Below are positions 7,166 through 58,300 of a stretch of 64,000 bases of DNA, piece after piece. The translations under genes were made by a program, and so were the position numbers. Below the pieces are notes generated by a model. That model searched no databases. It was not told where the DNA came from and worked only from the letters and a program-made list of their open reading frames with translations. Origin of the DNA: Calothrix sp. PCC 7103. GTDB taxonomy: Bacteria > Cyanobacteriota > Cyanobacteriia > Cyanobacteriales > Nostocaceae. The stretch spans positions 302,779-366,778 of the forward strand of contig NZ_KB217478.1 of NCBI RefSeq assembly GCF_000331305.1. Direction: 5' to 3'. Within the stretch, counting starts at the first letter, position 1; each line of letters opens with the position of its first letter.

Positions 7166-7819
7166 AATTTCCGCTGTCCAATGTAAGTCAGATGATTGGT
7201 AAACTTTAACACCTGTTATTCCAGCAATTTCTAGCATTTCACCAACTTCAGAAATTGTGAATGAAGCATGTAGTGAGTCTCGAAATAACCTTGTTTGGTG
7301 TTCGTTATACTCAGTACCAATACTCTGCACAATATTATTCATGGTTGCTTCGTTTACTGGTCGGAGTAAATCGCGAATAAAAATCCCTCCGTCTGGTTTT
7401 AATACTCGTTTAATTTCGGTAAAAAAAGGTATTGGGTCTGGTAAATGATGAATTAAGCTGTTGGACATCACCATATCAAATTGTCCATCTTGATATGGTA
7501 AATTTTTAGAATCAACGAGTTCAAGTGATATTTGTTGTTGTAATCCTAGTGTTTCTATATTCTTGGCGCCTATTTTCAGCATATTCTCAGCAAGGTCTAT
7601 GCCAATGATTTGTAAATTTGGGCACCGTTGACACATTAGTTGACACATTAAAATTGGTATACGTGCTGTCCCTGTACCTGCATCTAACACTAAACCAGAG
7701 GCGCCTAAGCTAATTGCGTGTTCTGCAAATGCGGTGTTAACATTAGTAAAATCCATTGCATCATATTCGATAGCCTCTTGTAAGGTATCCATGACTTCTG
7801 GTTCGAGTACTCGCTGCAT
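7136..7819 (-). CDS. class I SAM-dependent methyltransferase
   Basis: 227 aa. Rossmann methyltransferase with motif I VLDAGTGTARIPI (about residues 43-55), the acidic IIGIDLAENML after strand 2, DSKNLPYQDGQFDMV and NSLIHHLPDP (Methyltransf_11-like). The substrate cannot be read from sequence. The start codon directly follows the stop of the small upstream gene (TAG-ATG), so translation is probably coupled. The last eight residues, NGCNGCNG, come from the AACGGATGT repeat that has invaded the 3' end, so the ancestral C-terminus was probably different. Confidence 0.85.
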   Translation of the reverse strand: MQRVLEPEVMDTLQEAIEYDAMDFTNVNTAFAEHAISLGASGLVLDAGTGTARIPILMCQLMCQRCPNLQIIGIDLAENMLKIGAKNIETLGLQQQISLELVDSKNLPYQDGQFDMVMSNSLIHHLPDPIPFFTEIKRVLKPDGGIFIRDLLRPVNEATMNNIVQSIGTEYNEHQTRLFRDSLHASFTISEVGEMLEIAGITGVKVYQSSDLHWTAEIGNGCNGCNG

Positions 7820-41993: not shown

Positions 41994-42245
41994 TCAAACT
42001 GTGATGGAGTTGATTCGCTCTTGTTCTTTGAGCCAACTAACTACGCTCGACTTACTAACGTTTACATGTCTGTCTTCACCTTCTCTAAATATTTGGAATG
42101 ACCCTGTTTCTAGCTCGTATTAGTCTAAAATTAAGTTTGATTCTCTTGCTTTGTTCAACGCTTTGACTTGTTGGGGTATTAACTCCTCAATTCTGGATTT
42201 TTCTGCTTCGCTTAGTTGCTCCCAGACTTTATCCTTAACTGTCTA
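41994..42245 (-). pseudogene. unassigned gene remnant with in-frame stops
   Basis: One frame reads VKDKVWEQLSEAEKSRIEEL, then NKARESNLILD, a TAA, then YELETGSFQIFREGEDRHVN and SKSSVVSWLKEQERIN before TGA. A further in-frame TAG separates it from upstream codons that continue to 42494. The text looks like real protein with two nonsense mutations. No family was recognised. Confidence 0.5.
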
Positions 42246-42530
42246 GTGACGATATAACGAGCTTCTGACTTGGTAGTAACTTGTCGCTATAATGCGTTTG
42301 TACTTATTATACTTGAAGTTGTAGGTACGGTAGTTGTTCAAACTGGAAAATCTTGTAAGTGAAACTTTCTTATTATCCGTAAGATATACATTTATGGTAG
42401 GATAGTTGGCGACATCAAAAAAATGTACCTGAAGGCGCAAATTATCATTGGCATAAAAGAAATATCTTCTATACAATAAAGTTAATGCCCTCAAAATTTC
42501 ACTTTAATTTCGTAACTAAACTGTATCAAT

Positions 42531-43022
42531 ATGGCGAGAAAGAAAATAACGAAGTCTGAAGAGCGCGAGCCGTCAGCGAAAAAAGTCAAACAAGTCAAGC
42601 CCGAAGAAAACAAGGCATCGGCTAAAAAAGTCAAAGAAATTAAGCCATTGGAGGGTGAGGCATTAGTTAGCAAAGTCAAAGAAATGCCGAATAGCAGTAA
42701 AGAAGAAAAAGCTAAAGCCTGCGGCTACTATAGCGTCACCAAAAATGGCGTAGAGCGAGTTAATATGATGAAATTCCTCAATGCTCTACTTGATGCAGAA
42801 GAGATATCATTTGATACCCGTTCGGACGAGCATGGTCATGTCGGACGCAGTCCAAACTATCGAATTACAGTGCAGTCTAACGGCAATTTGCTCGTGGGTT
42901 CAGCTTATACAAAACAATTAGGCTTAAAACCTGGAGATGAATTTACCATCAATATAGGAAGAAAGCACATTAAATTGATATCAGTTTCAGAGCAAGAAAA
43001 TCAAGACGAACTTGCCGCTTAA
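42531..43022 (+). CDS. cyAbrB-type transcriptional regulator
   Basis: 163 aa. The C-terminal half (about 60-155) has the cyAbrB pattern: KACGYYSVTKNGVERVNMMK followed by FLNALLDAE, then GRSPNYRITVQSNGNLLVG, TKQLGLKPGDEFTINIGRKH. These proteins bind DNA and tune nitrogen, carbon and stress genes in cyanobacteria. The N-terminal 55 residues are an added Lys/Glu-rich tail with a repeated unit (SAKKVKQVKPEENKA / SAKKVKEIKPLEGEA), probably disordered. It is monocistronic and followed by a terminator made of two GGCGCC words. Confidence 0.88.
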   Translation: MARKKITKSEEREPSAKKVKQVKPEENKASAKKVKEIKPLEGEALVSKVKEMPNSSKEEKAKACGYYSVTKNGVERVNMMKFLNALLDAEEISFDTRSDEHGHVGRSPNYRITVQSNGNLLVGSAYTKQLGLKPGDEFTINIGRKHIKLISVSEQENQDELAA

Positions 43023-43043
43023 AACCAAATCTAAATCAACGAC

Positions 43044-43076
43044 GGCGCCTTTTGTGATAAACTTAAGGCGCCTTTT
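43044..43076 (+). terminator. terminator built from two GGCGCC palindromes
   Basis: GGCGCCTT and AAGGCGCC form the stem, followed by TTTTC, about 20 bases after the cyAbrB stop. Confidence 0.7.
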
Positions 43077-43241
43077 CTAATCACGAGACACCGATTATTA
43101 AATTTGGGTATACTTATAAATAGTCTGTACTTACGCGAACAATATGACATTAGGACTGGGTGTTAATACTCGTAATTCCTTCACAAAATAGTACTAGCTC
43201 TAACTATGTTGGTGACGCCGTAATTTACTGAACGTATTAAT

Positions 43242-43305
43242 GGTGCGTGAAAGCACTTTAATATACCTTACGTTGATTGGTTGTAATAGCTTTCACGCAC
43301 CCTAC
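43242..43305. repeat. MITE-like element, copy 3 (GGTGCGTGAAAGC)
   Basis: Arms GGTGCGTGAAAGC and GCTTTCACGCACCCTAC. The inner word GAAAGC replaces GACGC of copies 1 and 2, as in the copy at 54777. Confidence 0.6.
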
Positions 43306-43309
43306 TCTA

Positions 43310-43327
43310 GAATGGCACTTACTTAAG
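43310..43327 (+). repeat. dispersed 18-mer GAATGGCACTTACTTAAG, copy 2
   Basis: Directly adjacent to the MITE-like element; the reverse complement matches 54928-54945 exactly. Confidence 0.5.
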
Positions 43328-43477
43328 CTCGCAAAACTGTTGGTGGGTATGAAGTGTTTAATGTGTTTTTATAATAGTGAAATCCTAAGTAATTTTACTA
43401 CCTTAATCTTGGTAATATTTTTATGAGTATTTTATAAAAGAAATAATCATATCATGTCTGGTTGATTGCCCACAATG

Positions 43478-43499
43478 TAGAGACGTTACATGTAACGTC
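43478..43499. repeat. GTAGAGACG hairpin, third member
   Basis: TGTAGAGACGTTACATGTAACGTC contains GACGTTACATGTAACGTC, a perfect 18-bp palindrome, of the same GTAGAGACG family as 24494 and 35836. Confidence 0.5.
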
Positions 43500-43698
43500 A
43501 TGACCAGGATTTTATTACTTTCGGTAGATTAAACAAAATTTTTCGTTCTGCTTTGCATAATTTAGTACTTGTCCTGCCCATAGGTTAGAGAACACTCGAA
43601 TATTCACCAATACGTAATGTATAAACTAAAATACATCGAAATCATATATAATTTTACGAATAATTTAGGATTGTTATATTGAGGGGCTATGCATTTTT

Positions 43699-46600
43699 AT
43701 GTCGGATTTTTCCCGTAGTTGGGCGTTAGTCATTGGAATTAATAATTACAATAACGGTATTCCTCCTTTACAGAATGCAGTTAATGATGCTGAGTCTTTG
43801 GCAGAACTATTGCGGGGAAAATACGGTTACGAAGTGTGGAAATATATAGATGAAGCTGCCACTCTCAAAAATCTGCATGAATTACTTTCGGTAACGCTGC
43901 CAAAAAAAATTACTGCTAATGACCGATTGCTATTTTACTTTGCTGGTCATGGTATAGCGCTTAATTGTGATGAAGAATTGGAAGGTTTTTTGATTCCTCA
44001 AGATGCCAAGTTGAGAGATGTTCAAACTTACTTACCAATGACTCTGTTACATGAATGTTTGAGTAAATTGCCTTGTCGTCATTTTTTGGGTATTCTTGAC
44101 TGCTGTTTCGCTGGAGCATTTCGTTGGTCATCTGCTAACAGAGAAATTTTAGCTGCAATCACTGTATATAAAGAACGCTACGAACGGTTTATTGCTGACC
44201 CGGCATGGCAGGTAATTACTAGTGCATCTTATAATCAAAAAGCTTTAGATGCATTCGCACTTAATAATCAACGTGGTTTAGAGGGCAAGCATTCACCTTT
44301 TGCTTTCTCGTTATTAGAAGCTTTAGAGGGAAAAGCAGACCTTTATCCTCCAAGTACTAATGGTAGACCTGCTGGTGATGGTGTCATTACTGCTACTGAA
44401 TTATATTTATACCTCCGTGGTGCCTTAGAATCAATTCCTGAAGAACGTTGTCAAAAGCAAACTCCAGGAATTTTTCCTTTGAAGAAGCACGATAAAGGTG
44501 AATATATTTTCCTGACACCCGGACACGTACTTAATTTACCTTCGGCGCCACCTTTGGATGAATCAAAAAATCCTTATCGTGGTTTAGAATCTTTTGAGGA
44601 AGAACACAGTGGGCTATTTTTTGGTAGACAAGAATTAATCGAAAAGCTGCATGGATTCGTAAATAAGCAACCATTAACTGTAGTACTGGGAGCTTCGGGA
44701 AGCGGAAAATCTAGCTTGGTTAAAGCAGGATTAATATCTTATATCAAGAAGTTAGAATATTGGGAACAAGACTGGGTTATTTTATCACCTATGCGTCCTG
44801 GGGAATCACCATTTCGCGCTCTAAATAATGTGTTGACTTCTGAGAAACTACTCCCTGTTGACGTATCTAATGGCAATTATCAACAAGCAATTGTAAATTT
44901 AAAAGCTAGAATGACCGTTTGGTGTAAGCGTAATCCCAAGAAAAAGCTTTTATTTGTAGTTGACCAATTAGAAGAAGTGATTACTTTATGTCGCAACAAG
45001 CAAGAACAAGAAAACTTTTTAAATTTTTTAGCATTAGCATTAGAACAATATCCAAATTATGTGCGAATTATAATAACTTTGCGAAACGATTTTGAAGCGC
45101 AATTTAGGGATATTCATTTACGAAACTATTGGCAGCAGTCTCGATTTATTGTGGCGCCAATGACGCGCGATGATTTACGAAAAGCAATAGAAGAACCTGC
45201 TATTGCGAGGGTCATGTATTTTGAACCACATAGTTTAGTAGAGCAGTTACTCGATGATGTCGCACAAATGCCAGGAGCTTTACCTTTACTTTCTTTTACA
45301 TTAAGCGAACTTTATTTAAAGTATTTAAGAAGTTGTCGAGATGCTTTAAGAGATAATCGTGCGATAACACAACAAGATTACGAAGAATTAGGAGGGGTTG
45401 CACGGAGTCTCACTCAAAGAGCAGATTATGAATATGACCAATTAGTTAAATTAAATATTGCTTATGCTCAAACTATTCGTCATGTAATGTTACGAATGAT
45501 TGCAGTTGGTGGTGTTGACTCTGCTCGTCGGAGAGTGCAGTTAACAGAACTTGAGTATCCACCAGGAGAAAATGAGCGAGTACAAGAAGTGATATATCAT
45601 TTTACAGACGCGCGGTTATTAGTCAAAGGAGAAGATATTGATGGTAATCTTTATGTAGAACCTGCTCATGATGCTTTGGTGCATGGATGGCATAAGCTGT
45701 TAATATGGAAATACGAAGATGAGGAAAGTTTAATTTTACAACGACAGCTAACGCCCGCAACTCTTGATTGGATAAGTCAAAAATCGGCGCGCTTTCTTTG
45801 GAATAATAACCCTCGTCTTAGTTTATTGAAACAGATACTTAATTCTGATAATAATTGGCTTAACAAAGTAGAAGCTGAATTTGTGCGCCAAAGTCTTAAA
45901 CAAAAAAACAAGGTATTGACTCGTAATTGCAGTATTACAGTTGTAGCAGCATTATTATTAATTAGTACCACAACTATTGCAATTATTAAAGCTATAGACG
46001 CTCAAAAGCAATTACTTGAATCTAACTCGCTCTTAGCAGAAAATTTACTAGCATCAAATCAAGATTTAGAGGCTTTAGTAAAAGCTACTGAGGCAGGAAA
46101 AATGTTAAAAAACATGTTGACTGCTAACACAACTAAAGAAGATACTAAAACTAGAGTAATAACTACTTTAGAAAAGGTAGTTCACGGAGTCAAAGAACGC
46201 AACCGCTTAGAAGGAAAGCAAGAAAATAGCTTAATAAGTGTGAGTTTTAGCTCAGATGGTAAAATAATTGCTGGTGGTGGTGAAAATGGAATTATTAAGT
46301 TGTGGCATGATGATGGTAGAACATTTCAACAGCTTACTCAACAACAAGTAAATGATAGTAATGTTGTTCGAGTTATTTTTAGTAGTGATAATCAAACTTT
46401 AATTTCAGCTAGTCAGCAAAGCCTTAACATTTGGCGGCGCCAGGGTAATGAAAAATTCACCTTTTATAAATCAATCACTGACCCAAATGCAATAATGACT
46501 TGTGCTTTAAGTCCTGACGGCAAAACTATTGCTACTAGTAATTCAAGTGGAAATAATACGGTTATCAAGCTTTGGAACTTAAATGGCAAACTATTGAACA

Positions 46601-48030
46601 CTATAAATGGACATAAAGACCGCGTTAATGATTTGAGTTTTAGTCAAGATGGTTTAACTCTTGCTTCTGCTAGTGCAGATAAAACCATTAAGCTATGGAG
46701 TACTAAAAATGGTACAAAACCCAAAACTACTATTATGGACACTGAAAGTGTGTTTGCAGTACGTTTTATAGATAGTCAAACTATTGCGACGACTGGCGCC
46801 AATAGAGCTATTAAATTTTGGAATATTAAAGACGGCAAGTTGAAAAAAGTATTTACAACTGGTAATTCTGATGCTATCTCACGTTTGGTTCTGAGTCAGG
46901 ATGGTAAAACTATTGCTTCTATAAGCAAGGAAGATGGAATTATTAAAATTTCGAGTATAGACAAGAAACAATTGAATACTTTACATAGCGATAAAACGTT
47001 TACAGATGCGAGCTTTAGCTTTAGTAGTAATATTATTGCTTCTGCCGACGGAGATAATAAAATTAGAATTTGGAATTTTAGTAATACTGCTATGGCGCCT
47101 CAAGGTAAAACTTTTAGTTTTAGTCCAGACAGTAAAATGATAGTTACTGGAGAAGATAAAAATATTAACCTTTGGCGAATTGATGGTCAGCATGTAAAAA
47201 AGTTTAAACCAGCACATAAGGACTTTATCAATAAAGTGGTTTTTAGTCTAGATGGGAAAAAAATTGCGAGCGCTAGTAGAGATAGAACTGTGAAGCTGTG
47301 GGATTTAAACGGAAACCCACTGCAAACTTTTCCAGACCACAAAGAGTCAGTTACAAGCGTTAGCTTTAGCCCTGATGGTAAAATGATTGCTTCAGGTAGT
47401 CTTGATAATACAGTAAAACTTTGGGATATAAATAAAAACAAAATTAAAACTTTTTTAGGTCATAAAGATTCCGTTACAAGCGTTAGCTTTAGTCCTGATG
47501 GTAAAATGATTGCTTCAAGTAGTAACGATAAAACGGTGAAATTGTGGGATTTAAATGGAAATGTAGTCAAAAATATTACAGGATATGCAAAAGGTGTTTT
47601 GGATGTTAGTTTTAATCCGACTGGTAAGATGATTGCTACCGGAGGTGACGATAAAATTGTCACCCTTTGGGATTTAAGTACATCCTCTGGGCACCTAGAT
47701 GTTCGCTACAAATTTCCAATGTCTCATGAAGGCAGTGTTTTTCGAGTAAAATTCAATCCTCATGGTCGAACTTTAGCTTCGGCAAGTGAAACTGAAATTA
47801 TGCTTTGGACTTTAGATGGCACCCTGTTGCCATTAAAACAACAAAATTTTAAACAAGTCAGAGACATTAATTTTAGCCCAGATAGTACAAGCTTTGCGTT
47901 ATCTGATTCTGGTAAAATAACCGTGCTGAATATGAATTTAGATAAGTTACTCAAACAAAGTTGTAGCTGGCTGCATAACTACTTGCTGTACAGCAATCGC
48001 TCCTCAAGGACAGTATGTAATGTAAAGTAA
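43699..48030 (+). CDS. caspase (metacaspase/orthocaspase) - STAND NTPase - WD40 protein
   Basis: 1443 aa. Residues about 5-240 form a C14 caspase domain with His84 (YFAGHG) and the Cys dyad 135-136 (LDCCFAG). NPYRGLESFEEEHSGLFFGR opens a STAND NTPase (nSTAND1-like) with Walker A GASGSGKSS (331-339) and Walker B LLFVVDQLEEV, then a helical region to about 740. A hydrophobic helix (about 743-765) is followed by about 13 WD40 repeats (SFSPDGKMIASGS..VKLWD) up to 1420. The WD40 ring probably senses a signal, the STAND oligomerises and the caspase cuts. An ATG with GAGGGG upstream starts it. Natural substrates are unknown. Followed by the small helical gene and the second caspase locus. Confidence 0.92.
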   Translation: MSDFSRSWALVIGINNYNNGIPPLQNAVNDAESLAELLRGKYGYEVWKYIDEAATLKNLHELLSVTLPKKITANDRLLFYFAGHGIALNCDEELEGFLIPQDAKLRDVQTYLPMTLLHECLSKLPCRHFLGILDCCFAGAFRWSSANREILAAITVYKERYERFIADPAWQVITSASYNQKALDAFALNNQRGLEGKHSPFAFSLLEALEGKADLYPPSTNGRPAGDGVITATELYLYLRGALESIPEERCQKQTPGIFPLKKHDKGEYIFLTPGHVLNLPSAPPLDESKNPYRGLESFEEEHSGLFFGRQELIEKLHGFVNKQPLTVVLGASGSGKSSLVKAGLISYIKKLEYWEQDWVILSPMRPGESPFRALNNVLTSEKLLPVDVSNGNYQQAIVNLKARMTVWCKRNPKKKLLFVVDQLEEVITLCRNKQEQENFLNFLALALEQYPNYVRIIITLRNDFEAQFRDIHLRNYWQQSRFIVAPMTRDDLRKAIEEPAIARVMYFEPHSLVEQLLDDVAQMPGALPLLSFTLSELYLKYLRSCRDALRDNRAITQQDYEELGGVARSLTQRADYEYDQLVKLNIAYAQTIRHVMLRMIAVGGVDSARRRVQLTELEYPPGENERVQEVIYHFTDARLLVKGEDIDGNLYVEPAHDALVHGWHKLLIWKYEDEESLILQRQLTPATLDWISQKSARFLWNNNPRLSLLKQILNSDNNWLNKVEAEFVRQSLKQKNKVLTRNCSITVVAALLLISTTTIAIIKAIDAQKQLLESNSLLAENLLASNQDLEALVKATEAGKMLKNMLTANTTKEDTKTRVITTLEKVVHGVKERNRLEGKQENSLISVSFSSDGKIIAGGGENGIIKLWHDDGRTFQQLTQQQVNDSNVVRVIFSSDNQTLISASQQSLNIWRRQGNEKFTFYKSITDPNAIMTCALSPDGKTIATSNSSGNNTVIKLWNLNGKLLNTINGHKDRVNDLSFSQDGLTLASASADKTIKLWSTKNGTKPKTTIMDTESVFAVRFIDSQTIATTGANRAIKFWNIKDGKLKKVFTTGNSDAISRLVLSQDGKTIASISKEDGIIKISSIDKKQLNTLHSDKTFTDASFSFSSNIIASADGDNKIRIWNFSNTAMAPQGKTFSFSPDSKMIVTGEDKNINLWRIDGQHVKKFKPAHKDFINKVVFSLDGKKIASASRDRTVKLWDLNGNPLQTFPDHKESVTSVSFSPDGKMIASGSLDNTVKLWDINKNKIKTFLGHKDSVTSVSFSPDGKMIASSSNDKTVKLWDLNGNVVKNITGYAKGVLDVSFNPTGKMIATGGDDKIVTLWDLSTSSGHLDVRYKFPMSHEGSVFRVKFNPHGRTLASASETEIMLWTLDGTLLPLKQQNFKQVRDINFSPDSTSFALSDSGKITVLNMNLDKLLKQSCSWLHNYLLYSNRSSRTVCNVK

Positions 48031-48066
48031 AGTTCTGAAAAATTCATTCAAATTATTTACGCGCGA

Positions 48067-48152
48067 AGTGCATAAAGTTATTTTAGTGACACCTATATAT
48101 TAGCAAGAGAACAAATTTTGTTCTTTGTAAACTCATTTGGAGGTTTGAATTA
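48067..48152 (+). promoter_or_regulatory. conserved upstream sequence of small helical gene 1
   Basis: About 85 bases (GTGCATAAAGTTATTTTAGTGACACCTATATATTAGCAAG..GGAGGTTT) that recur, with few changes, before the second paralog (49360-49445). The conservation reaches from about 85 bases upstream to the ribosome site, as expected for a shared promoter or leader. Confidence 0.6.
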
Positions 48153-48364
48153 TGACATACGGCGACTATACTTACGGCTCATCCTATGAAGATGGTATAC
48201 AACACTATAATACAGCAACGGATTACATAGGGCAGGGACGTAGGGATGATGCTCGCTCATATCTAGAATTAGCGAGAAATATCTTTATGCAGTGTAGCCA
48301 AACAAAACCTGAAGCTGCAAGATATTTGCAAATGGTAGAAGATAAGCTACGGAATTTGGGTTAA
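48152..48364 (+). CDS. small helical protein, paralog 1
   Basis: 70 aa. Pattern MTYGDYTYGSSYEDGIQHYN followed by YIGQGRRDDARSYLELARN, FMQCSQTKPEAARYLQMVED and LRNLG. Two or three helices with A/L spacing of TPR type, soluble, no Cys cluster apart from CSQ. The second copy (49446) is about 60% identical by eye. The ribosome site GGAGG is 9 bases upstream. It follows the caspase-STAND-WD40 gene by 121 bases. Role unknown; TPR-like fold suggests a protein-protein adaptor of the caspases (inference). Confidence 0.75.
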   Translation: MTYGDYTYGSSYEDGIQHYNTATDYIGQGRRDDARSYLELARNIFMQCSQTKPEAARYLQMVEDKLRNLG

Positions 48365-48387
48365 TAATTAGTTTACATCTTATGGGA

Positions 48388-48403
48388 TGGGCGCCTTCGC
48401 CCA
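48388..48403. terminator. hairpin TGGGCG-CCTT-CGCCCA
   Basis: A perfect 6-bp stem 24 bases after the stop of paralog 1. No T run follows, so termination is only possible. Confidence 0.4.
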
Positions 48404-48417
48404 GTCATATGTCAAAA

Positions 48418-48564
48418 TTAAGATGGGCAAACTCTGGGAGTAATGAAGTCTCCAGGCACCTTATTTGATATAGATGCTGTTAACATAACTTCACCCTTAT
48501 TGTTTATTGCCCAATTATCAGCTTCGACAATTTGAGGTGAAGTTAATTTTTCTTTAAGGTAAAT
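48418..48564 (-). pseudogene. tail remnant of a two-partner-secretion exoprotein
   Basis: 48 codons ending TAA: KEKLTSPQIVEADNWAINNK then GEVMLTASISNKVPG and TPRVCPS. PQIVEADNWxxxxKGEVxLTA is the final motif of cyanobacterial filamentous-hemagglutinin-like proteins. No start and no upstream repeats remain. Confidence 0.6.
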
Positions 48565-48946
48565 AATTTAGTACTAATGTTTGCCTTAAAAGGGCTGGCA
48601 TTGCCCTGACTGCCTGACAGATTTATATGGAAAGCAGTCAAATCAAGCTTTGCACTCCAAAGAGTAGATGCGAGAAAACCATATTTTGTAACTAATATCT
48701 TCGCGAGCTTTATTGGAAGCAAAACAAGGCTCTTGGTATGAAGGTAGTAAAGGGACTGGGGTTAATAATTCTCGCCCCTTATTAATAACGCCTTTAAGCT
48801 AGGGTGTTGACTCTGTAACGATTTTGGGTTTTCGTTCATGCAAAAACTGTGGTTAGTTGCAATGGCTGAAACCTTCTTTTCAACCCGCTTTCAGCAAAAA
48901 AAACTAAATAGCACGTACAAATTTACCAAAAAAGGGCTAAATTTTA

Positions 48947-48989
48947 ACAAAGTAAACACCCTACCTTTAAGCTAGGGTGTTTACTTTGT
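48947..48989. repeat. 17-bp perfect hairpin around TTTAAGC
   Basis: ACAAAGTAAACACCCTA and its complement TAGGGTGTTTACTTTGT with a 9-base loop (CCTTTAAGC). The loop and right arm are repeated at 48791-48808 without the left arm. Confidence 0.6.
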
Positions 48990-49359
48990 GTATAAGGCTT
49001 GTAAAAAAGTTCATACAGTTTTTGTGTCACGTGGCGCCAGCGTAAAAGGCTTGTATAATAAGGGTTTTGAGCTTTACGACAAAACACAGTACTATGATAA
49101 GCTATTTATGTCTAAATTATAACATAATCAACACCCTAGAATTAAACCCCTCTGACTTGTTAAAAGAGTGGGATTGAAACAAGGACGTTGTTTTTCTTCG
49201 TGCAACGCATACACTCGTTCACGTAGTGTCTCCGGAGGAGAAAAAACATTTTTATTTTTACGCTCGCTTAAACCCAGAAGGCGCATTTCTTATTGGTATG
49301 GAGCCAATTCGCCTTCTGCCCTCTGCCTTCTTGTAAAAAAAAATTAAATTGGTTGCTTA

Positions 49360-49445
49360 AGAGTGCATAAAGTCATTTTCGTGACACCTACATATTAGTA
49401 AGGGAGCAAGCTTTGCTCTGTGTATATTAAATGGAGGTTTTAATT
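49360..49445 (+). promoter_or_regulatory. conserved upstream sequence of small helical gene 2
   Basis: Matches the first copy: GTGCATAAAGTCATTTTCGTGACACCTACATATTAGTAAG and a final GGAGGTTTTAATT before the ATG. The in-between segment (GAGCAAGCTTTGCTC, a hairpin) corresponds to GAACAAATTTTGTTC in the first. Confidence 0.6.
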
Positions 49446-49664
49446 ATGACATACGGTGACGGCGGTTACGGTGGCTCATCTTTTGAGCAAGGTAAAGCAA
49501 ACTACAAGTCAGCTATGGAATACATAGGGCAGGGACGTAAGGGTGATGCTCGCAAATATCTAGAATTAGCAATAAATATCTTTAAAATGTGCAGTCAACA
49601 AAGTTCTGAAGCTGCAAAATATTTGGGTATGGCTGAACAAGAGCTACAAAATTTGGGTAGATAA
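49446..49664 (+). CDS. small helical protein, paralog 2
   Basis: 72 aa. MTYGDGGYGGSSFEQGKANY, YIGQGRKGDARKYLELAIN, CSQQSSEAAKYLGMAEQELQ, close to paralog 1. The ATG at 49446 is fixed by GGAGG and by alignment to paralog 1. It precedes the lipoprotein gene by 111 bases. Its placement ahead of the second caspase locus, with its own copy of the leader, suggests each paralog belongs to one caspase protein. Confidence 0.75.
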   Translation: MTYGDGGYGGSSFEQGKANYKSAMEYIGQGRKGDARKYLELAINIFKMCSQQSSEAAKYLGMAEQELQNLGR

Positions 49665-49775
49665 TCAGTAAACATGCTTCCTTAGTGTAAAAACCTTACA
49701 TGTACGGTTTCTACGTCTTTGGAAGTATTAGTGCAGTTTTCAGGGAAACTCAAAATAATTGAATGTCAAATACTT

Positions 49776-50669
49776 ATGGCTAAAAACTTTCAGAAAACAT
49801 TGTTACTAGTTACCATTTTGGCAACTTTCGCAAGTGGGTGTCGGTCTACAGATGATTACAAAAAGTTTGCTGAGGCTGGAAATAACTTTGCTAAAGCCAA
49901 TAATGAGTTATTAAATTCTGCTGAGAAGATGGCAGTTAATACCACTTCTGAAAGAATGTTGAGTGATAGAATCATTAAAGGAGAACCTGAGCTTAATATT
50001 AAGGATAGAGACAATTTTACTAGGCGTTATGAGGAAAATTTTTCCAAGTCAGATATAGAACGTCTTGAACTTATTAAAGAGCTTCGTAATCACAATAGAC
50101 TTTTGTTTACCTACTTTAATACACTGCTCAAATTAGCTGGTTCTGACTCTTCTGTACGAACTCAAACAGCAGTTACTAGTATCGCTAATCAGTTACAAGA
50201 TAGTGGTAACAGGCTAATAAGTCTTGGCAATCTCGGCAAATTACCATCCGTGACTGGTATAGTTCTTGATGCTCGAATTCGCGGCACCATTAGAGGAGAA
50301 TTAGAAAAGCGTAAAGAGAGTATTTACCGAGAAATAACAATCCAAGAAAAGTTATTGAAAGTCATTGGTAATTCAATGGAGGATGATGCAAAAGTAACAC
50401 GACAATTACAAGAATATCGTCTTGTACTTCTACCACTATTTGAATCATTAGACAAGATTAAGCAGGATGACTGGTTAGAAAAAAGGTATGAAGTAATGAC
50501 ACAAGATTCTAAAGTAATAGACCAAATTAATGAAGCAAGTGGTAATTTAGCAGAGTTCAGAGAAATGTTTATCGCTTCTGTCGGGGGAGAAGTAACTAGT
50601 AAGCAGATTAATACTTTTGTCAGAAAAACCAATTCATTTTCAAAAGAGATTGTTGTTAACAAACCATAA
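49776..50669 (+). CDS. lipoprotein with helical domain
   Basis: 297 aa. Signal peptide with lipobox LATFASGC (Cys21 or so) after KNFQKTLLLVTI, so the mature form is lipid-anchored at the membrane. The rest is helical and charged, with no named family: DRDNFTRRYEENFSKSDIER, LFTYFNTLLKLAGSD, a central LEKRKESIYREITIQEKL. The start at 49776 is chosen to place the signal at the N-terminus. It lies 23 bases before the caspase-lipase gene and the two are probably co-expressed. It may tether or regulate the caspase at the membrane (inference). Confidence 0.75.
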   Translation: MAKNFQKTLLLVTILATFASGCRSTDDYKKFAEAGNNFAKANNELLNSAEKMAVNTTSERMLSDRIIKGEPELNIKDRDNFTRRYEENFSKSDIERLELIKELRNHNRLLFTYFNTLLKLAGSDSSVRTQTAVTSIANQLQDSGNRLISLGNLGKLPSVTGIVLDARIRGTIRGELEKRKESIYREITIQEKLLKVIGNSMEDDAKVTRQLQEYRLVLLPLFESLDKIKQDDWLEKRYEVMTQDSKVIDQINEASGNLAEFREMFIASVGGEVTSKQINTFVRKTNSFSKEIVVNKP

Positions 50670-50692
50670 TTATTTATCAGGAGATATATACC

Positions 50693-53600
50693 ATGTCTAT
50701 TAATACTGAAGCAGATGCTCAAGCATATTTGGCTCAATTAAGGCAATGTGACTTAAATCTTAACAAGCCAAGCATGATAATTAAAAAGCAAGGTCAATCC
50801 ATAGCGGAAATAGATGCATTTAACGACAAGCGTGCAGCACTTGCTAGTAAAATTCGAGAACTTGAAACTCGAAATATTAGGCAATTATTAGCAAATTTAA
50901 AAGCAAATGAAGCTTCATTAAAAAATGGCATAAATAATTTAAATAAAGAAATTGAAATAGCTAATAATATCGCTAAAATTACAGAGGCAATTGATAGAGT
51001 CCTCAAGGTTGTTACTGCTGTGTTGAGTGTAGGACGAGAAATTGTCAGAAGAAGTATATACGTTTTACTTGTGGGTATCGATAATTATCCCGACCCAAAT
51101 CATGCCCTCAAAGGTTGTGTAAATGATATTATCGCTATTGAAGAGTACTTAATTACACGATTCAATCAAAAAGAATACCAACTAAATTTATTAACGCTCA
51201 AAGACGAGCAAGCAACCCGCGAAGCAATTATTAATGGTTTCCGTACCCATCTTTGTCAAGCTACAAAAGATGATGTAGTTCTATTCTACTACAGTGGTCA
51301 TGGTTCTCAAGAGTTGGCGCCTGCTGAATTTTTGCATTTAGAACCAGACCATTTAGATGAAACTTTGGTATGTTATGACAGTCGTACAAAAAACGGTTGG
51401 GACTTGGCAGATAAGGAATTAGCAAAACTAATCTCAGAATTGAGACAAGACGCACATATCACTATTATTATGGATTGCTGTCACTCTGGTTCTGGCACTA
51501 AAGACCCAAGTGATAGAACTCTTGAACGTCGCTTAGATGTAGACAAACGCGCACGTCCATTAGATAGCTTTATTTTTACCCTCGATGATTTAAAGCAGCT
51601 ATCAAACACCCGTGACCATGACAAACATCCCAGTGGATGGAATATACTTACAGGTCGTCATGTGCTTTTAGCAGCTTGTCGAGACTATGAAACCGCAAAG
51701 GAATATCCAGGTAAATATCGGGGTTACTTCTCTTATTATTTAATGGATACGCTTTCTAAAGCTAACGGAAAGTTAACTTATCGAGATTTATTTGGACGTG
51801 TAAATGCCATTGTCCGCAGTGCAATGTTAGACCAGTCTCCGCAACTGGAAGTAAATTACACCGAGGATAGTCATAAATTTTTCCTCGATGGTGCCATCGC
51901 TGAAACTGCACCATATTATATTGTTCAGTATGACCAAACTGATGGCTGGGTAATTGATGGTGGTGCTGTTCACGGAGTACAACCACCTAAAAATGGCGAA
52001 ACTACTTTACTGACTTTGTTTCCATTTGGCGCCACAATTGAAGATACACGGGATGCTTCAAAATCTGTAGGTACAGCAAAAATCACAGATGTACTACCAA
52101 CTAAAAGTAAGATAGATCTCGAAGGAGTACAAGACTTAGATGATAATAGTACATTTAAAGCAATTGTCACTAGTTTACCACTACCACCATTAGGAGTATA
52201 TATTGAAGGAGACTCTAAGGGTGTAAATTTGGCAGTTGAAAAGCTAGGTACTTCAGCTTATATACGCGGGGAACAAGAAATAAGCAAAGCCGATTTTCGT
52301 CTATTGTGCCGCAATGACCAGTATATAATAACTAGAACGATAAATGACCGACCTTTAGTAGCTCAAATTGATGGCTACATTCCAGACAACGCAGACAAAG
52401 CAATTAAACGCTTAGAACATATTGCCCGGTGGACAACAGTTGCTCAACTTGCAAATACTGCTGCGACTTGGATAAAAGCGGATGATGTGAAAATGGAGCT
52501 TATCTTTACCGATAAGAACTTAGAGCAAACATCGATGCGTTTATCATATATATATAAAGACCAGAAGTGGCACAAACCCGAATTTCAACTTAAACTCACC
52601 AATACAAGCAATAAACCACTTTATTGTGGTTTAGTTAATCTTTCAGACAGCTTTTCTATTAGTACTCCATTTTTTGAATCAGGTAGTATTAGATTGCAAC
52701 CAGGAGAAGAAGCTTATGCTTTAGATGGACAAAGGTTAACACTCTCTGTCCCAGATGAGTATTGGAAACAAGGAATTACTGAGTACAAAGATATTATTAA
52801 GTTGATTGTAAGCAATAACGAATTTGATGCTAGATTACTCAACCAGGGTTCGCTTGATGCTCCTCGGCCAATACGAAGAAATACAGAATCATCAACTAAA
52901 AGTAGTTTAGAGCGCTTAATGGAGCGTACTCAAAATCGTGAAATTACTGCTGCAAGTGATGGCGCCAATGTTGATGATTGGTACGCAAAAGAAATTACAA
53001 TTACTACAGTGCGTCCTTTAGATTCTATTCCAGTTTCTAAAGAACACTCACAACGATTAGGAGTAGGAGTAAATTTACAACCCCATTCCAGCTTAACAGC
53101 AAATGTTCGCCTTACAAGTACACCGCAAGCTAGTCGAGACTTAGATAATAAAATTGTACCTCCCATCTTGCGAGAAAATCCCGAAATTATTCGACCCTTC
53201 CAATTTACTACCAGTCGCGGTACAGACCCAGGATTAAGTGTACTGGAACTGACCGATGTTACAGATTATGAAGTTGTTACAGAAGAGGCGCCTTTAAAAT
53301 TACTAGTCAATGCACAATTAGCAGATAATGAATATATACTTCCTTACGGTTACGATGGTGAATTTTTTTTACCACTAGGTTATGGTCAAGCAACTGCAAA
53401 TGGCTTAGTCGAAATTACTTTAGAAAGATTATCGGCGCCTGTTAGTGAGGGAGAACGCAGCTTACAAGGTTCGATTAAAATCTTCTTTGAAAAAGTCGTC
53501 AGCCAGAAATTAGGAAGAGAATTTGATTATCCTATTTTAGCAGTAGCTGAAGTAGAAGAGGATGAAAAAGTCACTTATAAACGGGATGCAAATTATGTCA

Positions 53601-54454
53601 AACAAAGAGTAGCTCAAGCAAAACGAATTGCTGTATATATTCATGGAATCATTGGCAGTACAGAAAGTTTAGTCTCTACAATCAAACAACCCGTTGGTAA
53701 ACATTGCATCAGCGAATTTTATGATTTAGTTCTCACCTTTGATTACGAGAATCTGAATACTAACATTGAGCAAAACGCTGAATATTTAAAGCAACGCCTA
53801 AAAGATGTAGGTTTATCAGAAAATCACGGTAAACAACTACACATTATTGCTCATTCAATGGGTGGTTTGGTATCTCGCTGGTTTATTGAGCGAGAAGGAG
53901 GTAATAAAGTTGTTCAACACCTAATTATGTTAGGTACACCAAATGCCGGTTCTCCTTGGTCTGTAGTAGAAGATCTAGTAAAATTGACTCTAGCTATTGC
54001 ACTCAATGGTCTTTCTACAATTGCTTATCCTACAAAAGTGATAGCGATGTTAATGGATACATTAGGAAAAAATATTCGGGTAGCTATGGCTCAAATGAAC
54101 CCAAATTCCGATTTTCTCAAACATCTGGCAGCGAGTCAAGACCCAGGTATTCCCTACTCAATTATCGCTGGTAATACCTCTATCATACCCGCAGCATTGA
54201 AGGAACAAGCCGATGATACATCTGTAATACAACGATTACAACAACGTTTATTTAATAAAGTTGTAGAAGTGCCGTTTTTTGGTATACCGAATGATATAGC
54301 GGTGAAAGTGGATAGTATTACGAGTATCCCTATGGGACGCGCGCATTCTCCTTATATTCAAGAAGTACCTTGTGACCATTTGAGTTACTTTTTGAGTACT
54401 CCCACTACTGTTGGGTTAAGCGCTTTGGTTGGTGCTATTGAGTCATTGGAATAG
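50693..54454 (+). CDS. caspase domain fused to an alpha/beta-hydrolase (lipase-like) domain
   Basis: 1253 aa. N-terminal coiled coil (about 30-110, LRELETRNIRQLLANLKANE-like), then a C14 caspase (about 118-400): SIYVLLVGIDNYPDPNHALK, His203 in YYSGHGS, Cys dyad 262-263 in MDCCHSGSG. A central beta-rich region (about 400-955, including caspase-associated-like segments and VEKLGTSAYIRG) connects to a C-terminal alpha/beta hydrolase (about 975-1250): VYIHGIIGSTESL, Ser1055 in AHSMGG, and LGTPNAGSPW, a PGAP1/DUF676-like lipase pattern. AGGAGA lies 9 bases before the ATG. A plausible model is a protease that activates or pairs with a membrane lipase. Both active sites keep their key residues. Confidence 0.88.
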   Translation: MSINTEADAQAYLAQLRQCDLNLNKPSMIIKKQGQSIAEIDAFNDKRAALASKIRELETRNIRQLLANLKANEASLKNGINNLNKEIEIANNIAKITEAIDRVLKVVTAVLSVGREIVRRSIYVLLVGIDNYPDPNHALKGCVNDIIAIEEYLITRFNQKEYQLNLLTLKDEQATREAIINGFRTHLCQATKDDVVLFYYSGHGSQELAPAEFLHLEPDHLDETLVCYDSRTKNGWDLADKELAKLISELRQDAHITIIMDCCHSGSGTKDPSDRTLERRLDVDKRARPLDSFIFTLDDLKQLSNTRDHDKHPSGWNILTGRHVLLAACRDYETAKEYPGKYRGYFSYYLMDTLSKANGKLTYRDLFGRVNAIVRSAMLDQSPQLEVNYTEDSHKFFLDGAIAETAPYYIVQYDQTDGWVIDGGAVHGVQPPKNGETTLLTLFPFGATIEDTRDASKSVGTAKITDVLPTKSKIDLEGVQDLDDNSTFKAIVTSLPLPPLGVYIEGDSKGVNLAVEKLGTSAYIRGEQEISKADFRLLCRNDQYIITRTINDRPLVAQIDGYIPDNADKAIKRLEHIARWTTVAQLANTAATWIKADDVKMELIFTDKNLEQTSMRLSYIYKDQKWHKPEFQLKLTNTSNKPLYCGLVNLSDSFSISTPFFESGSIRLQPGEEAYALDGQRLTLSVPDEYWKQGITEYKDIIKLIVSNNEFDARLLNQGSLDAPRPIRRNTESSTKSSLERLMERTQNREITAASDGANVDDWYAKEITITTVRPLDSIPVSKEHSQRLGVGVNLQPHSSLTANVRLTSTPQASRDLDNKIVPPILRENPEIIRPFQFTTSRGTDPGLSVLELTDVTDYEVVTEEAPLKLLVNAQLADNEYILPYGYDGEFFLPLGYGQATANGLVEITLERLSAPVSEGERSLQGSIKIFFEKVVSQKLGREFDYPILAVAEVEEDEKVTYKRDANYVKQRVAQAKRIAVYIHGIIGSTESLVSTIKQPVGKHCISEFYDLVLTFDYENLNTNIEQNAEYLKQRLKDVGLSENHGKQLHIIAHSMGGLVSRWFIEREGGNKVVQHLIMLGTPNAGSPWSVVEDLVKLTLAIALNGLSTIAYPTKVIAMLMDTLGKNIRVAMAQMNPNSDFLKHLAASQDPGIPYSIIAGNTSIIPAALKEQADDTSVIQRLQQRLFNKVVEVPFFGIPNDIAVKVDSITSIPMGRAHSPYIQEVPCDHLSYFLSTPTTVGLSALVGAIESLE

Positions 54455-54466
54455 GGGTTTGAACTT

Positions 54467-54490
54467 GGGGTGGGCAGAGATGCCCGCTCC
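54467..54490. repeat. hairpin GGTGGGCA-GAGA-TGCCCGCTCC
   Basis: A GGGCA/TGCCC-type stem 13 bases after the caspase-lipase stop; a possible transcript end. Confidence 0.45.
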
Positions 54491-54543
54491 ACATGAGACA
54501 GATGAAGATTTGAAGGTGATTTTTATAACACTTGACCAAAGCA

Positions 54544-54723
54544 TTAATTAGCGTTTAAGCTACCTTGCCAACGAAGACTATTCCAAGCATAAGCATCAAT
54601 TTCGACTTGCAGATCGAGTTTTGGCGCCTGGTTATAAGCTGAGAGCGCTTTTTTGATTTTATTTTCGCGAACAACATTACTTGCCTTATCAACTAAACCT
54701 GAAGCTGAAATACGGATGTCCAA
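54544..54723 (-). pseudogene. TPR-like tail remnant of a STAND/WD40-type protein
   Basis: 59 codons ending TAA, cut off upstream by an in-frame TAG: LDIRISASGLVDKASNVVRE then KALSAYNQAPKLDLQVEIDA and WNSLRWQGSLNAN. The AYxxAxxLDxxxEIxAxxWNSLxWxGSL pattern ends many cyanobacterial STAND, caspase or WD40 giant proteins. It probably marks a lost relative of the intact genes to its left. Confidence 0.55.
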
Positions 54724-54776
54724 CTACTAGATTTATGATATATGACCTATCGGCGCCTGAACCTTTGGTTAAGTAT

Positions 54777-54842
54777 GTAGTGTGCGTGAAAGCTTGAATA
54801 AATTAAAATTAAAACGCGAAATCAAGTGCTTTCACGCTCCAC
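54777..54842. repeat. MITE-like element, copy 4
   Basis: Arms GTAGTGTGCGTGAAAGC and GCTTTCACGCTCCAC. As at 43242, an 18-mer of the GAATGGCACTTA type follows within about 90 bases. Confidence 0.6.
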
Positions 54843-54927
54843 CAACTCGAATAAGAAAAGCTTCGTCTAATTAAAGGTATTAACAAGCTTGTGATGTTGG
54901 GTTCCGTTCCTCCACTACCTACAATTC

Positions 54928-54945
54928 CTTAAGTAAGTGCCATTC
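54928..54945 (-). repeat. dispersed 18-mer CTTAAGTAAGTGCCATTC, copy 3
   Basis: Exact complement of 43310-43327. Confidence 0.5.
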
Positions 54946-55338
54946 AACTGTAAAATATCATTACTTGAATACTTGCGTGTTAATACTGTTGCCATTCAAA
55001 GTTTCTTCTTCTCAGGGCAGTCTCAGTAGTTAATCCACCCTTTTTAAGCTTTCTTCATCATTTTTATAAAGCTAAGAAAAACTATCTCAAGTAGAAAAAA
55101 TCATTTAATTAAAGACCCACAACACTAACTTTGTTTATTTTTCAAGGCTTTTATCTTAAAAATATTTATTAATTTCGTATGAATCAACTCTCTATATATT
55201 TTTGCAGGACTTGATTTTTAAATTTGTGTAAAAAAAATGTGAAATAGCTTCAAATTACTATTTCAGCAAAATTACGCTTTTTTTATTTAACAGAATTAGT
55301 AAAGTTAGATACATAACATAAACCAGTCTTCCGAAGTT

Positions 55339-58300
55339 ATGGCAGATAATAACCTTTCAATTTTTAATTCAATATTACCAACTACAGTAACAGAAATTAT
55401 TACCGATTACGACACGTCAACAACTACAGCATCTCTTTCGCCAAGTTATATAAATGTCACCATTACTAATGGCGGACAACTGAATGGCGTTTATGACGCT
55501 TGGTGTGTTAATAGTACCGTTGCGATTCGTAAAGGCACTTATAATCAAGCTAATGTATATTCAAGCTATGGCGCCATACCTGCTGGTATCCTTTATACAG
55601 GTTCGCAAACAACCAACTCGTCTGCTGAACAATACCTAAATAAACTTAAGCAAATTAATTGGCTAATAAATAACGTTACAGAAGCAGCTAATGTAGTTGA
55701 CAATAAATACCGCTACAATAACGTTGACTACACTTGGGGTGATGTACAGTTAGCTATCTGGAAACTTCTGGGAGAAACTTCTGTAATAGATAGCACGGAC
55801 TACAACTCATTAGAAGTTTATAGTCAGCAGAGAGCAGATGCGTTAGTAAGTTTTGCTGTAACCAATGGGAGTGATTTTGTACCAGTAGCAGGACAAGATT
55901 TTGGAGTAATTGTTAAAGGCGCCAACCAGCAACCAATCTTGATGGAAGTCAAGACAGCAGGTATTGGAGATTTTGTTTGGCATGACTTAAATGCCAATGG
56001 GGTTCAAGAGGCTAACGAAGCAGGAATAGATGGTGTAACAGTTACGTTACTTGATGGTAAAGGTAATGTTGTTGGCACCACTACTACTGGAGATAACCCC
56101 TACACAACACAAATTGAGAAGGGTTGGTATCAGTTTGGTCCTTTGCTGCCTAATACCTATCAGGTGAAATTTAGCTTACCAGAAGGCTTTAATACAGTTA
56201 GTCCATACCTGCAAGGCAACACATCTCTAGATTCCAATGCTAACATCAACAATAATTTGACTTCCGCACCTATTACCTTAGTTGCTGGAGAAGTTAACAG
56301 AACTATTGATGCAGGGTTCTACAAAACAGCATCGTTGGGAGACAAAGTATTCAATGACTCCAACAACAACGGTATTCAAGATGCAACAGAAGCAGGAGTT
56401 GCAGGGGTAACAGTACAATTAATCAGCCCCGTTGACGGTAGTGTTATCGGTACAACCACCACAGATGCAAATGGTGGTTATAGCTTTAGCGGTTTAACCC
56501 CTGGCGATTATCAAGTTAAATTTACATCGCCAACAGGTTATATCTTTAGCCAAGCCAATATCGGAGATGACACTAAAGACAGTGATGCTAACTCCACAAC
56601 TGGTTTAACCCAAACAGTCACCCTAACATCAGGAGAATTTAACGGCACAATAGATGCTGGATTAGTGCGATTAGCTAGTTTAGGTAACTTTGTCTTTGAA
56701 GACAAAAATGCTAATGGTATCCAAGATACTTCTGAAACGGGTATCGCCAATGCTACAGTCAACCTGCTAGATACAGCAGGTAATGTCATTGCCACCACAA
56801 CCACAGACGCAAATGGTCTCTACTCCTTCAGCAACTTGCAACCAGGAGATTACAAAGTTCAATTTGTACAACCTGATGCCTTTAATGCCGTAAGTGTTGC
56901 CAATGTTGGCACCAATGATGAGATTGACAGCGATGGTCTCCAGAGCGATGTAGTTAATCTTTCTCCAGGAGAGAATGACACCACAGTCGATTCCGGGTTC
57001 TACAAAACAGCATCGTTGGGAGACAAAGTATTCAATGACTCCAATAACAACGGTATTCAAGATGCAGCAGAAACAGGAATAAATGGCGTAACAGTACAAT
57101 TAATCAATCCTATTGATGGTAGTGTCATCGTTACAACCACCACAGATGCAAATGGTGGTTATAGCTTTAGCGGTTTAACCCCTGGCGATTATCAAGTTAA
57201 ATTTACATCTCCAACAGGCTATATCTTTAGTACAGCAAATGTCGGAGATGATGCCAAAGACAGTGATGCTAATTCCACAACAGGTTTAACTCAAACAGTT
57301 ACCCTAACATCAGGAGAATTTAACGGTACATTAGATGCTGGATTGGTTCAATTAGCAAGCTTAGGTAACTTTGTCTTTGAAGACAAAAATGCCAACGGTA
57401 TTCAAGAAGCAGGTGAAGCAGGTATTGCCAATGCCACTGTTAAATTGTTAGATGTAGCAGGTAATGTCATCGCTACAACTACCACAGACGAGAATGGTCT
57501 TTACTCCTTCAACAACTTGCAACCAGGAGATTACAAAGTTCAATTTGTACAACCTGATGCCTTTAATGCCGTAAGTGTTGCCAATGTTGGCACCAATGAT
57601 GAGATTGACAGCGATGGTCTCCAGAGCGATGTAGTTAATCTTTCTCCAGGAGAGAATGACACCACAGTCGATTCCGGGTTCTACAAAACAGCATCGTTGG
57701 GAGACAAAGTATTCAATGACTCCAACAACAACGGTATTCAAGATGCAACAGAAGTAGGAGTTGCAGGGGTAACAGTAGAATTAATCAGCCCCGTTGACGG
57801 TAGTGTCATCGGTACAACCACCACAGATGCAGATGGTGGTTATAGCTTTAGCGGTTTAACCCCTGGAGACTATCAAGTTAAATTCACATCGCCAACAGGC
57901 TATATCTTCAGCGAAGCCAATATCGGAGATGACACTAAAGACAGTGATGCTGATTCCACAACTGGTTTAACTCAAACAGTTACCCTAACATCAGGAGAAT
58001 TTAACGGTACATTAGATGCTGGATTGGTTCAATTAGCAAGCTTGGGTAACTTTGTCTTTGAAGACAAAAATGCCAACGGTATTCAAGAAGCAGGTGAAGC
58101 AGGTATTGCCAATGCCACTGTTAAATTGTTAGATGTAGCAGGTAATGTCATCGCTACAACTACCACAGACGAGAATGGTCTTTACTCCTTCAACAACTTG
58201 CAACCAGGAGATTACAAAGTTCAATTTGTACAACCTGATGCCTTTAATGCCGTAAGTGTTGCCAATATTGGCGCCAATGATGAGATTGACAGTGATGGAC

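Follow-up and report, generated by a model that had tools for sequence, protein, structure and literature searches.

We analysed a 64,000-nucleotide stretch of the Calothrix sp. PCC 7103 genome (GCF_000331305.1, contig NZ_KB217478.1, positions 302,779–366,778; the window), in which the genes at 43699–54454 had been proposed, from the letters alone, to form a caspase-based conflict locus. The five genes named in that original prediction, encoding a caspase-nSTAND-WD40 protein, two small helical proteins (small1 and small2), a lipoprotein and a caspase-hydrolase, were all present on the + strand with the expected domains and motifs (Table 1). A fused adaptor domain, absent from the original prediction, was also found to link the lipoprotein with the caspase-hydrolase. 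What the sequence itself shows is the gene content and motifs, the pairing, the fusion, the linkage of the cassette, the predicted topology and an upstream element.

Both caspase genes qualify as prokaryotic caspases (Peptidase_C14, orthocaspase), as judged from Pfam matches above the cut-off and a His-Cys dyad: AGHG/DCCFAG in the caspase-STAND protein and SGHG/DCCHSG in the caspase-hydrolase. In the latter, His203 and Cys263 were invariant across the 29 rows of alignment A5 (window row included), Peptidase_C14 matched with an E-value of 1e-21 and the alpha/beta-hydrolase family DUF7379 with 5e-16 (LCAT and PGAP1 more weakly), and the modelled caspase fold matched metacaspase 9 (Foldseek E 2e-12). 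The caspase-STAND protein likewise qualifies as an nSTAND1 NTPase on its Pfam match (E 2e-101, 341 bits against a cut-off of 27.1) and its Walker A motif (GASGSGKSS), and its WD40 match had an E-value of 7e-93. The hydrolase carries AHSMGG and the lipoprotein the lipobox FASGC; we take the caspase, Walker A, hydrolase and lipobox motifs to have their usual functional meaning. The 11.58-Mb host genome holds 19 Peptidase_C14 matches above the cut-off, both window genes included, two of the 19 being the second copy of one stretch of contig C9.

Table 1. Features of the two-caspase locus (window coordinates; aa, amino acids; ORF, open reading frame)
Feature	Position	Strand	Remarks
Caspase-nSTAND1-predicted transmembrane segment-WD40 protein, 1443 aa	43699..48030	+	ORF, Pfam, motifs, hydropathy; proposed transmembrane receptor/initiator
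Caspase domain of caspase-STAND protein, limits approximate	43699..44553	+	AGHGIA 43942-43959; DCCFAG 44098-44115
nSTAND1 NTPase	44572..45783	+	Walker A 44689-44715; Walker B-like 44947-44979
Predicted transmembrane segment, aa 745-763	45931..45987	+	K/R richer on N side
WD40 propeller region, limits approximate, predicted periplasmic	46219..47949	+	Pfam and topology prediction
~34-bp upstream element, copy 1	48067..48100	+	
small1, 70-aa TPR-hairpin-like protein	48152..48364	+	122 bp 3′ of caspase-STAND gene
~34-bp upstream element, copy 2	49362..49395	+	
small2, 72-aa paralogue of small1 with duplicated leader	49446..49664	+	Whole ORF 77 aa, from 49431
Lipoprotein, 297 aa, all-helical model	49776..50669	+	Lipobox 49827-49841; Cys22 invariant in 17 rows of alignment A4
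Adaptor-caspase-hydrolase fusion, 1253 aa	50693..54454	+	
Helical adaptor domain of fusion, aa 1-116	50693..51040	+	Homologous to standalone lipoprotein-adjoining protein; six helices in model
Linker Arg115	51035..51037	+	Arg in 15/15 fused proteins examined; candidate self-cleavage site
Caspase domain of fusion, limits approximate	51056..51892	+	His203 51299-51301; Cys263 51479-51481
Alpha/beta-hydrolase, DUF7379/LCAT/PGAP1-like	53618..54451	+	Ser1055 in AHSMGG

The caspase pair and the lipoprotein-adaptor cassette in other genomes

Relatives of the caspase-hydrolase were common (2271 of 7992 scored proteins at E ≤ 0.001). Nearly all of the best 120 had both Peptidase_C14 and DUF7379, and the named sources among the listed relatives were cyanobacterial ‘caspase family’ proteins. 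The pairing of the two caspase genes was examined in 60 stretches picked for a close relative of the window caspase-STAND gene and not for its partner; they were drawn from 98 listed places, with five candidates scored per genome, and loci fetched for other reasons were not refetched. These held 65 caspase-STAND genes, of which four were dropped for having less than 2 kb of 5′ flank. In 30 of the remaining 61, which are not independent because several stretches share a genome or belong to closely related ones, a caspase(-hydrolase) gene lay on the same strand within 2 kb 5′ (18 with the hydrolase, 12 without), and in 37 such a gene lay within 5 kb on any side. The order was usually caspase(-hydrolase) followed by STAND, with gaps often below 400 bp. 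Independent scattering of the two caspase genes, which the original prediction had named as the outcome that would speak against it, was therefore not what we found. In one related locus (L089, genome G031) there is a STAND gene on either side, the 5′ one being 77% identical to the window gene over its first 700 residues; the customary STAND partner on the 3′ side may therefore have been lost from the window. From these arrangements, the caspase(-hydrolase) and caspase-nSTAND-WD40 genes appear to be a core pair, one of three linked units at the locus.

A hydrophobic segment between nSTAND and WD40 was present in 49 of 59 long caspase-STAND proteins (≥1350 residues; a 19-residue stretch with mean Kyte-Doolittle hydropathy ≥1.6 within residues 600–950), and in 48 of these 49 there was an excess of K/R on its N-terminal side. 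Under the positive-inside rule, the K/R-rich side of a transmembrane segment stays cytoplasmic. The caspase and NTPase are therefore predicted to be cytoplasmic and the WD40 region periplasmic, making the protein a predicted transmembrane receptor with its WD40 domain outside. The available text of PMC7475262 proposes such a layout for some orthocaspases.

Residues 1–116 of the fusion are homologous to standalone helical proteins of 100–160 residues. The lipoprotein, whose start at ATG 49776 was set by its relatives (a longer, 316-residue ORF opens at TTG 49719), is also found in Calothrix sp. NIES-4105 (NZ_AP018290.1). Its profile matched 8 of 291 genomes of the order and 46 of 217 genomes of the family, a few as fragments only. 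The adaptor profile gave eight strong matches in the order (E < 1e-15), all adjoining a lipoprotein gene; 17 more (E 3e-4 to 0.008) were treated as noise.

We surveyed 52 loci with a whole or nearly whole lipoprotein gene, leaving out short fragments elsewhere; a 53rd fetched locus (L155), which nearly duplicates L134 and whose assembly is flagged as 38% contaminated, was dropped. The adaptor was fused to a caspase in eight loci, standalone and directly 3′ in 41 (gaps of −76 to +72 bp; the lipoprotein frame-broken in two) and 5′ in one (L151). None was seen in L101, and L150 was undecidable near a contig end. A scan of 138 stretches gave 53 adaptor-bearing ORFs in 51 loci, 49 of them within 300 bp of a lipoprotein gene. 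A rule that the adaptor always lies beside the lipoprotein was rejected on the other four: the second copies in L139 and L140, where a tandem pair of standalone adaptors adjoins one lipoprotein gene, L151 (432 bp away) and L065. In L065 (genome G006), the adaptor (7432–7734) is standalone and 458 bp 3′ of an unfused caspase-hydrolase, an arrangement that may have preceded fusion or been left behind by it.

Given at least 1.2 kb of 5′ flank, a lipoprotein gene lay directly 5′ of the caspase(-hydrolase) gene in 7/7 fused versus 0/54 unfused cases; one fused and four unfused genes were dropped, and the dropped fused one (L120) has its lipoprotein gene 1 bp away. A caspase-STAND gene was found in the fetched stretch at 7/8 fused versus 3/41 standalone loci (Fisher p 1e-5, for loci that are not independent and differ in flank length). 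The parts combine freely, 41 of the 52 cassettes being standalone. The eight neighbours scanned at these were WD40 proteins (three loci), a histidine kinase and a formamidase (one locus), a GDSL lipase, an MFS/DUF900 protein and one familyless protein; a ninth, at the adaptor-less L101, was a polyketide synthase. Together these counts suggest that lipoprotein and adaptor are a separate two-gene module that has been joined to a caspase gene.

No convincing Pfam family was found for the lipoprotein (17 rows) or the adaptor (15 rows). The 15 adaptors gave weak matches, with no known effector-associated domain (EAD, Death-like, TRADD-N) among the first 25 of 127 families, the EAD coverage of the Pfam copy being unchecked. 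The lipoprotein model was confident and all-helical (predicted local distance difference test, pLDDT, 84), with no specific PDB match by structure or sequence; ClyA-like toxins were among the weak matches. The adaptor model had six helices (pLDDT near 83), and the adaptor ends in an amphipathic helix. Among plasmid records none carried the lipoprotein, and one phage record had a distant caspase match.

Identity to the window adaptor was 50–68% for fused adaptors and 18–26% for standalone ones. Because the fused adaptors are far closer, one fusion origin followed by losses or recombination is likely. A single fusion with clean descent was unsupported, the fused label requiring eight changes on a 66-row caspase tree (built without nine of 74 chosen relatives whose start the extraction pattern missed, fused P0052 and P0055 among the nine). 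At the junction, an arginine directly follows the last adaptor helix in 15/15 fusions (the window protein, in which it is Arg115, and 14 fused relatives from the best 120 listed), and a second basic residue precedes the caspase in these 15 proteins. Orthocaspases are reported to cut after positively charged residues (PMC6426788, available text). Cleavage at Arg115 is predicted to give a free adaptor of about standalone length.

Further copies of these parts lie on contig C9 of the host genome, which carries more caspase pairs and a standalone cassette (L084–L086). Caspase matches at 104–108 kb of this contig repeat with equal scores at 384–389 kb, as might be expected if C9 were a ∼280-kb circular replicon whose assembled ends overlap.

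The small genes and their upstream element

The two small proteins are paralogous, as had been predicted (63% identity). Each resembles one TPR-type hairpin, with Pfam TPR_2 matches (E 0.02 and 0.008) that fall short of the family cut-off. A first profile search of 291 genomes gave no convincing match outside the window, and a 5-word search of 5.8 billion proteins returned small2 itself only. That they are orphans was nevertheless rejected: once profiles had been built up from candidate sequences, relatives emerged 3′ of caspase-STAND genes in L064, L181 and L123 (strong) and in L224 and L190 (weaker).

Strong family members (E < 1e-20) numbered five in four of 208 family genomes, namely the two window genes and one each in G009, G018 and G343, the last three being rows of the search profile itself. 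They had first been linked by position, with a plain-search E-value of 5e-6 for G009, 24 bits for G018 and an E-value of 2e-13 for G343. All five lie 3′ of a caspase-STAND gene, at 120–135 bp for small1, G009 and G018 and ∼400 bp past the last STAND/WD40 piece in G343. The G343 locus (L123), with its STAND gene in pieces, also has the lipoprotein gene together with an adaptor-caspase fusion, 983 residues long, that lacks the hydrolase. Two weaker candidates are a 68-residue ORF in G369 (E 5e-4 genome-wide), 184 bp 3′ of a frame-broken STAND gene, and a 72-residue ORF in G364 (L190), 148 bp 3′ of a STAND gene, which scored E 1.1 over all loci and 0.003 in its own locus and was absent from the genome-wide profile matches. 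The other 37 of 43 listed matches (E 7e-5 to 0.009) were treated as noise; most of them fall within longer frames. Most of the 80 caspase-STAND genes examined had no small gene. These distributions point to a small, quickly diverging family. Where the small genes occur, they accompany the caspase-STAND gene. The grouping of the five genes survived the comparison with other genomes that the original prediction had set as its test, but not as a fixed five-gene set.

The common leader described for the small genes was also found (81% identity over 84 bases). Since there is no third whole copy in the 11.58-Mb genome, it most likely came with the gene duplication. A structured RNA was not supported (folding z −0.35 and −1.85; no Rfam match at gathering score in 42000–55400); a 15-nt palindrome, its changes matched between the two leaders, was seen by eye only. 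The first ∼34 bp of the leader, comprising TGCATAA, an AT-rich spacer and then ACACCTATATA, also precede the small genes of L190 and L064. A profile seeded with these four sites and grown once by score alone found 39 sites at E ≤ 0.1 in 2.06 Mb of fetched loci, 34 of which had a same-strand gene within 400 bp. These 34 genes were 28 system genes (three of the four seeds included) and six others, against a background of 269 system genes and 985 others in loci that were chosen for system genes and in part overlap or are orthologous. Sites were present in L082, L085, L096, L102, L124, L149, L198 and L205, among others.

Genome-wide, the element pattern with up to two mismatches gave 29 sites in the host genome (G000), G002 and G024, against none for reversed-pattern controls. 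Eight of the 29 precede small, STAND-caspase, caspase(-hydrolase) or lipoprotein genes (one of them a lipoprotein fragment) and a ninth precedes a WD40-like fragment. In the host genome, a degraded lipoprotein fragment (C7:6244464-6244815) still has the element upstream. Because unrelated genes carry it too, the element is best described as a wider regulatory element in which system genes are over-represented, and not as private to them; it is possibly the promoter of a regulon.

Around these genes, an AbrB-like regulator (PF14250, window 42531–43022) lies 5′ of the caspase-STAND gene, and an IS630-type transposase gene (39939–40976) lies upstream of the locus. Between small1 and small2 (48800–49000), there are two near-identical ttaagctagggtgtt pieces ∼170 bp apart, perhaps the remnant of a mobile element.

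A possible mechanism and its alternatives

We tentatively read the locus as a membrane-spanning two-caspase switch for regulated death or defence in Nostocales-type cyanobacteria, giving this slightly less than even weight. A membrane cascade best fits the pairing, the topology, the junction arginine and the hydrolase; its sensing, cascade, cleavage, lipid target and purpose are what we infer. With the WD40 domain in the periplasm and the nSTAND NTPase and caspase of the receptor inside, an envelope-side signal would be sensed by WD40 together with the lipoprotein. The lipoprotein may be a periplasmic partner of the receptor rather than the plain anchor first suggested. Sensing would cause the nSTAND domains to oligomerise and bring the receptor caspases together as initiators, which would then act on the neighbouring adaptor-caspase-hydrolase, the executioner. 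An Arg-directed cut at the conserved joint would free the adaptor, about as long as the standalone form and with its amphipathic C-terminal helix, and the same cut would unlock the executioner caspase and lipid hydrolase, leading to membrane or proteome damage. Within the fusion, the cassette would tie the executioner to the envelope and probably restrain it, and the small TPR-hairpin proteins would be fast-evolving accessories of the STAND receptor. In its strongest form, a two-tier cascade would cross the membrane: the apoptosome-like, WD40-outside receptor would fire an inner caspase, which would cut the caspase-lipase at the conserved Arg, free a membrane-active adaptor and kill the cell, with the lipoprotein gating the executioner and all parts sharing the upstream element. 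This complete version we consider doubtful. As a whole, the original interpretation is partly supported, and defence or cell death would be the joint function of the locus.

Several observations weigh against this switch. The window order is inverted, with the STAND gene 5′, the small genes between and a 2.66-kb gap, and 24 of the 61 caspase-STAND genes have no caspase(-hydrolase) gene within 5 kb. One of the eight fused loci (L088) has no STAND gene in its fetched stretch, and the L065 adaptor (115 bits) has no lipoprotein anywhere in its 16 kb. On the caspase tree, fused proteins turn up in scattered places, at least six of the eight changes being forced by well-supported branches. Ten of the 59 STAND proteins fell under the transmembrane threshold, some narrowly, and the fusion model was weak outside the adaptor and caspase (mean pLDDT 67, predicted template modelling score 0.43). 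The cytoplasmic membrane should separate the lipoprotein, on its outer side, from the caspase-hydrolase, which has no signal sequence by eye and would be inside, so that contact would need bridging by the receptor or by the adaptor amphipathic helix. Finally, the remaining genome-wide element sites include ones before unrelated genes, among them TIR, AAA, response-regulator, cupin, glycosyltransferase, peroxidase, ferric-reductase, dehydrogenase and familyless genes.

The breadth of that element, found before cupin, glycosyltransferase, peroxidase, ferric reductase and response-regulator genes, resembles a physiological regulon and, like the many caspase genes in the genome, would suit a membrane signalling protease pair for stress or developmental proteolysis, with the hydrolase acting to remodel lipids; the formation of heterocysts, hormogonia or akinetes would be examples. 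However, the distribution of the lipoprotein in the family and the order is patchy, the small proteins evolve fast, a TIR gene also carries the element and the architecture resembles conflict systems (PMC7159879, available text). We regard this developmental role as unlikely, if worth keeping in view.

The many standalone cassettes with their mixed neighbours, together with the 54 unfused caspase genes that have no lipoprotein 5′, raise instead the prospect of a self-contained envelope module, such as a lipoprotein for lysis or stress and its partner, that has merely been fused, with the lipoprotein and small genes outside the caspase pathway. The lipoprotein directly 5′ of every fused gene counted and the STAND caspase at seven of eight fused loci argue against it, and we think such a module improbable. 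Chance gathering, which the caspase-rich genome and the atypical window gene order might suggest, is contradicted by the recurrent pairing and cassette linkage in other genomes and is very improbable.

The lipoprotein-adaptor cassette delineated here is a two-gene unit that has no Pfam family and is found repeatedly among Nostocales-type cyanobacteria. If the switch is real, it would place initiator-executioner caspase logic and an apoptosome-like receptor in bacteria within one compact locus, with a sensor facing the envelope and an output attacking lipid, and many cyanobacterial caspase genes would gain a concrete circuit to test.

Relation to known systems

Among the papers listed, judged by titles and the starts of abstracts, none was found on the caspase pair, the small genes or the lipoprotein-adaptor cassette. 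The same caspase-STAND-type NTPase-WD40 architecture occurs in cyanobacterial orthocaspases that carry NACHT/AAA and WD40 domains; in their available text, the surveys describing them (PMC3501461, PMC7475262, PMC8283722) treat the domains of single proteins, and the paired caspase-hydrolase, cassette and small genes were not found there.

The EACC1 two-gene system (System 4, Kaur et al. 2020, PMC7159879, available text) likewise has a membrane component 5′ of a caspase with a variable C-terminal effector, for which autoproteolytic effector release is proposed. However, EACC1 is a single-transmembrane protein of actinobacteria and some proteobacteria, whereas the window has a helical lipoprotein 5′ and an adaptor fused to the caspase. 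The EACC1-type caspase model (NCBIfam NF047832) scored 65.9 and 48.6 bits against a cut-off of 140, and in place of a glycine-rich transmembrane helix the 5′ gene has a lipobox followed by an all-helical model with no Pfam family. In the VMAP/MoxR-vWA ternary systems, the same source describes the caspase as always accompanied by an alpha/beta-hydrolase gene; in the window the hydrolase is in the same chain as the caspase, the NTPase is an nSTAND receptor, and none of the seven window proteins scanned matched MoxR, vWA or VMAP. In the Canu caspase-nuclease (PMC12799240), a caspase likewise activates a neighbouring effector by cleavage, and protection of E. coli against phage T4 is reported. 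Its effector is a nuclease, and the available text was not found to describe a STAND-WD40 receptor, lipoprotein or second caspase.

The nearest described systems, as far as their available text goes, share single traits with the locus, and the combination of all was found in none of them. Nor did the locus show the components of an anti-phage system listed in PADLOC (PADLOC-DB 2023), which gave a generic ‘caspase’ model and WD40/ATPase cross-matches, and none for the lipoprotein or small genes. In the animal apoptosome, the STAND NTPase Apaf-1, with its WD40 sensor, clusters caspases, first the initiator and then the executioner. The window WD40 region is similar to that of Apaf-1. Unlike Apaf-1, the window receptor contains the caspase in its own chain and is a predicted membrane-spanning protein, and there is a hydrolase on the second caspase. 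The locus has the look of a bacterial relative of the animal machinery that initiates cell death.

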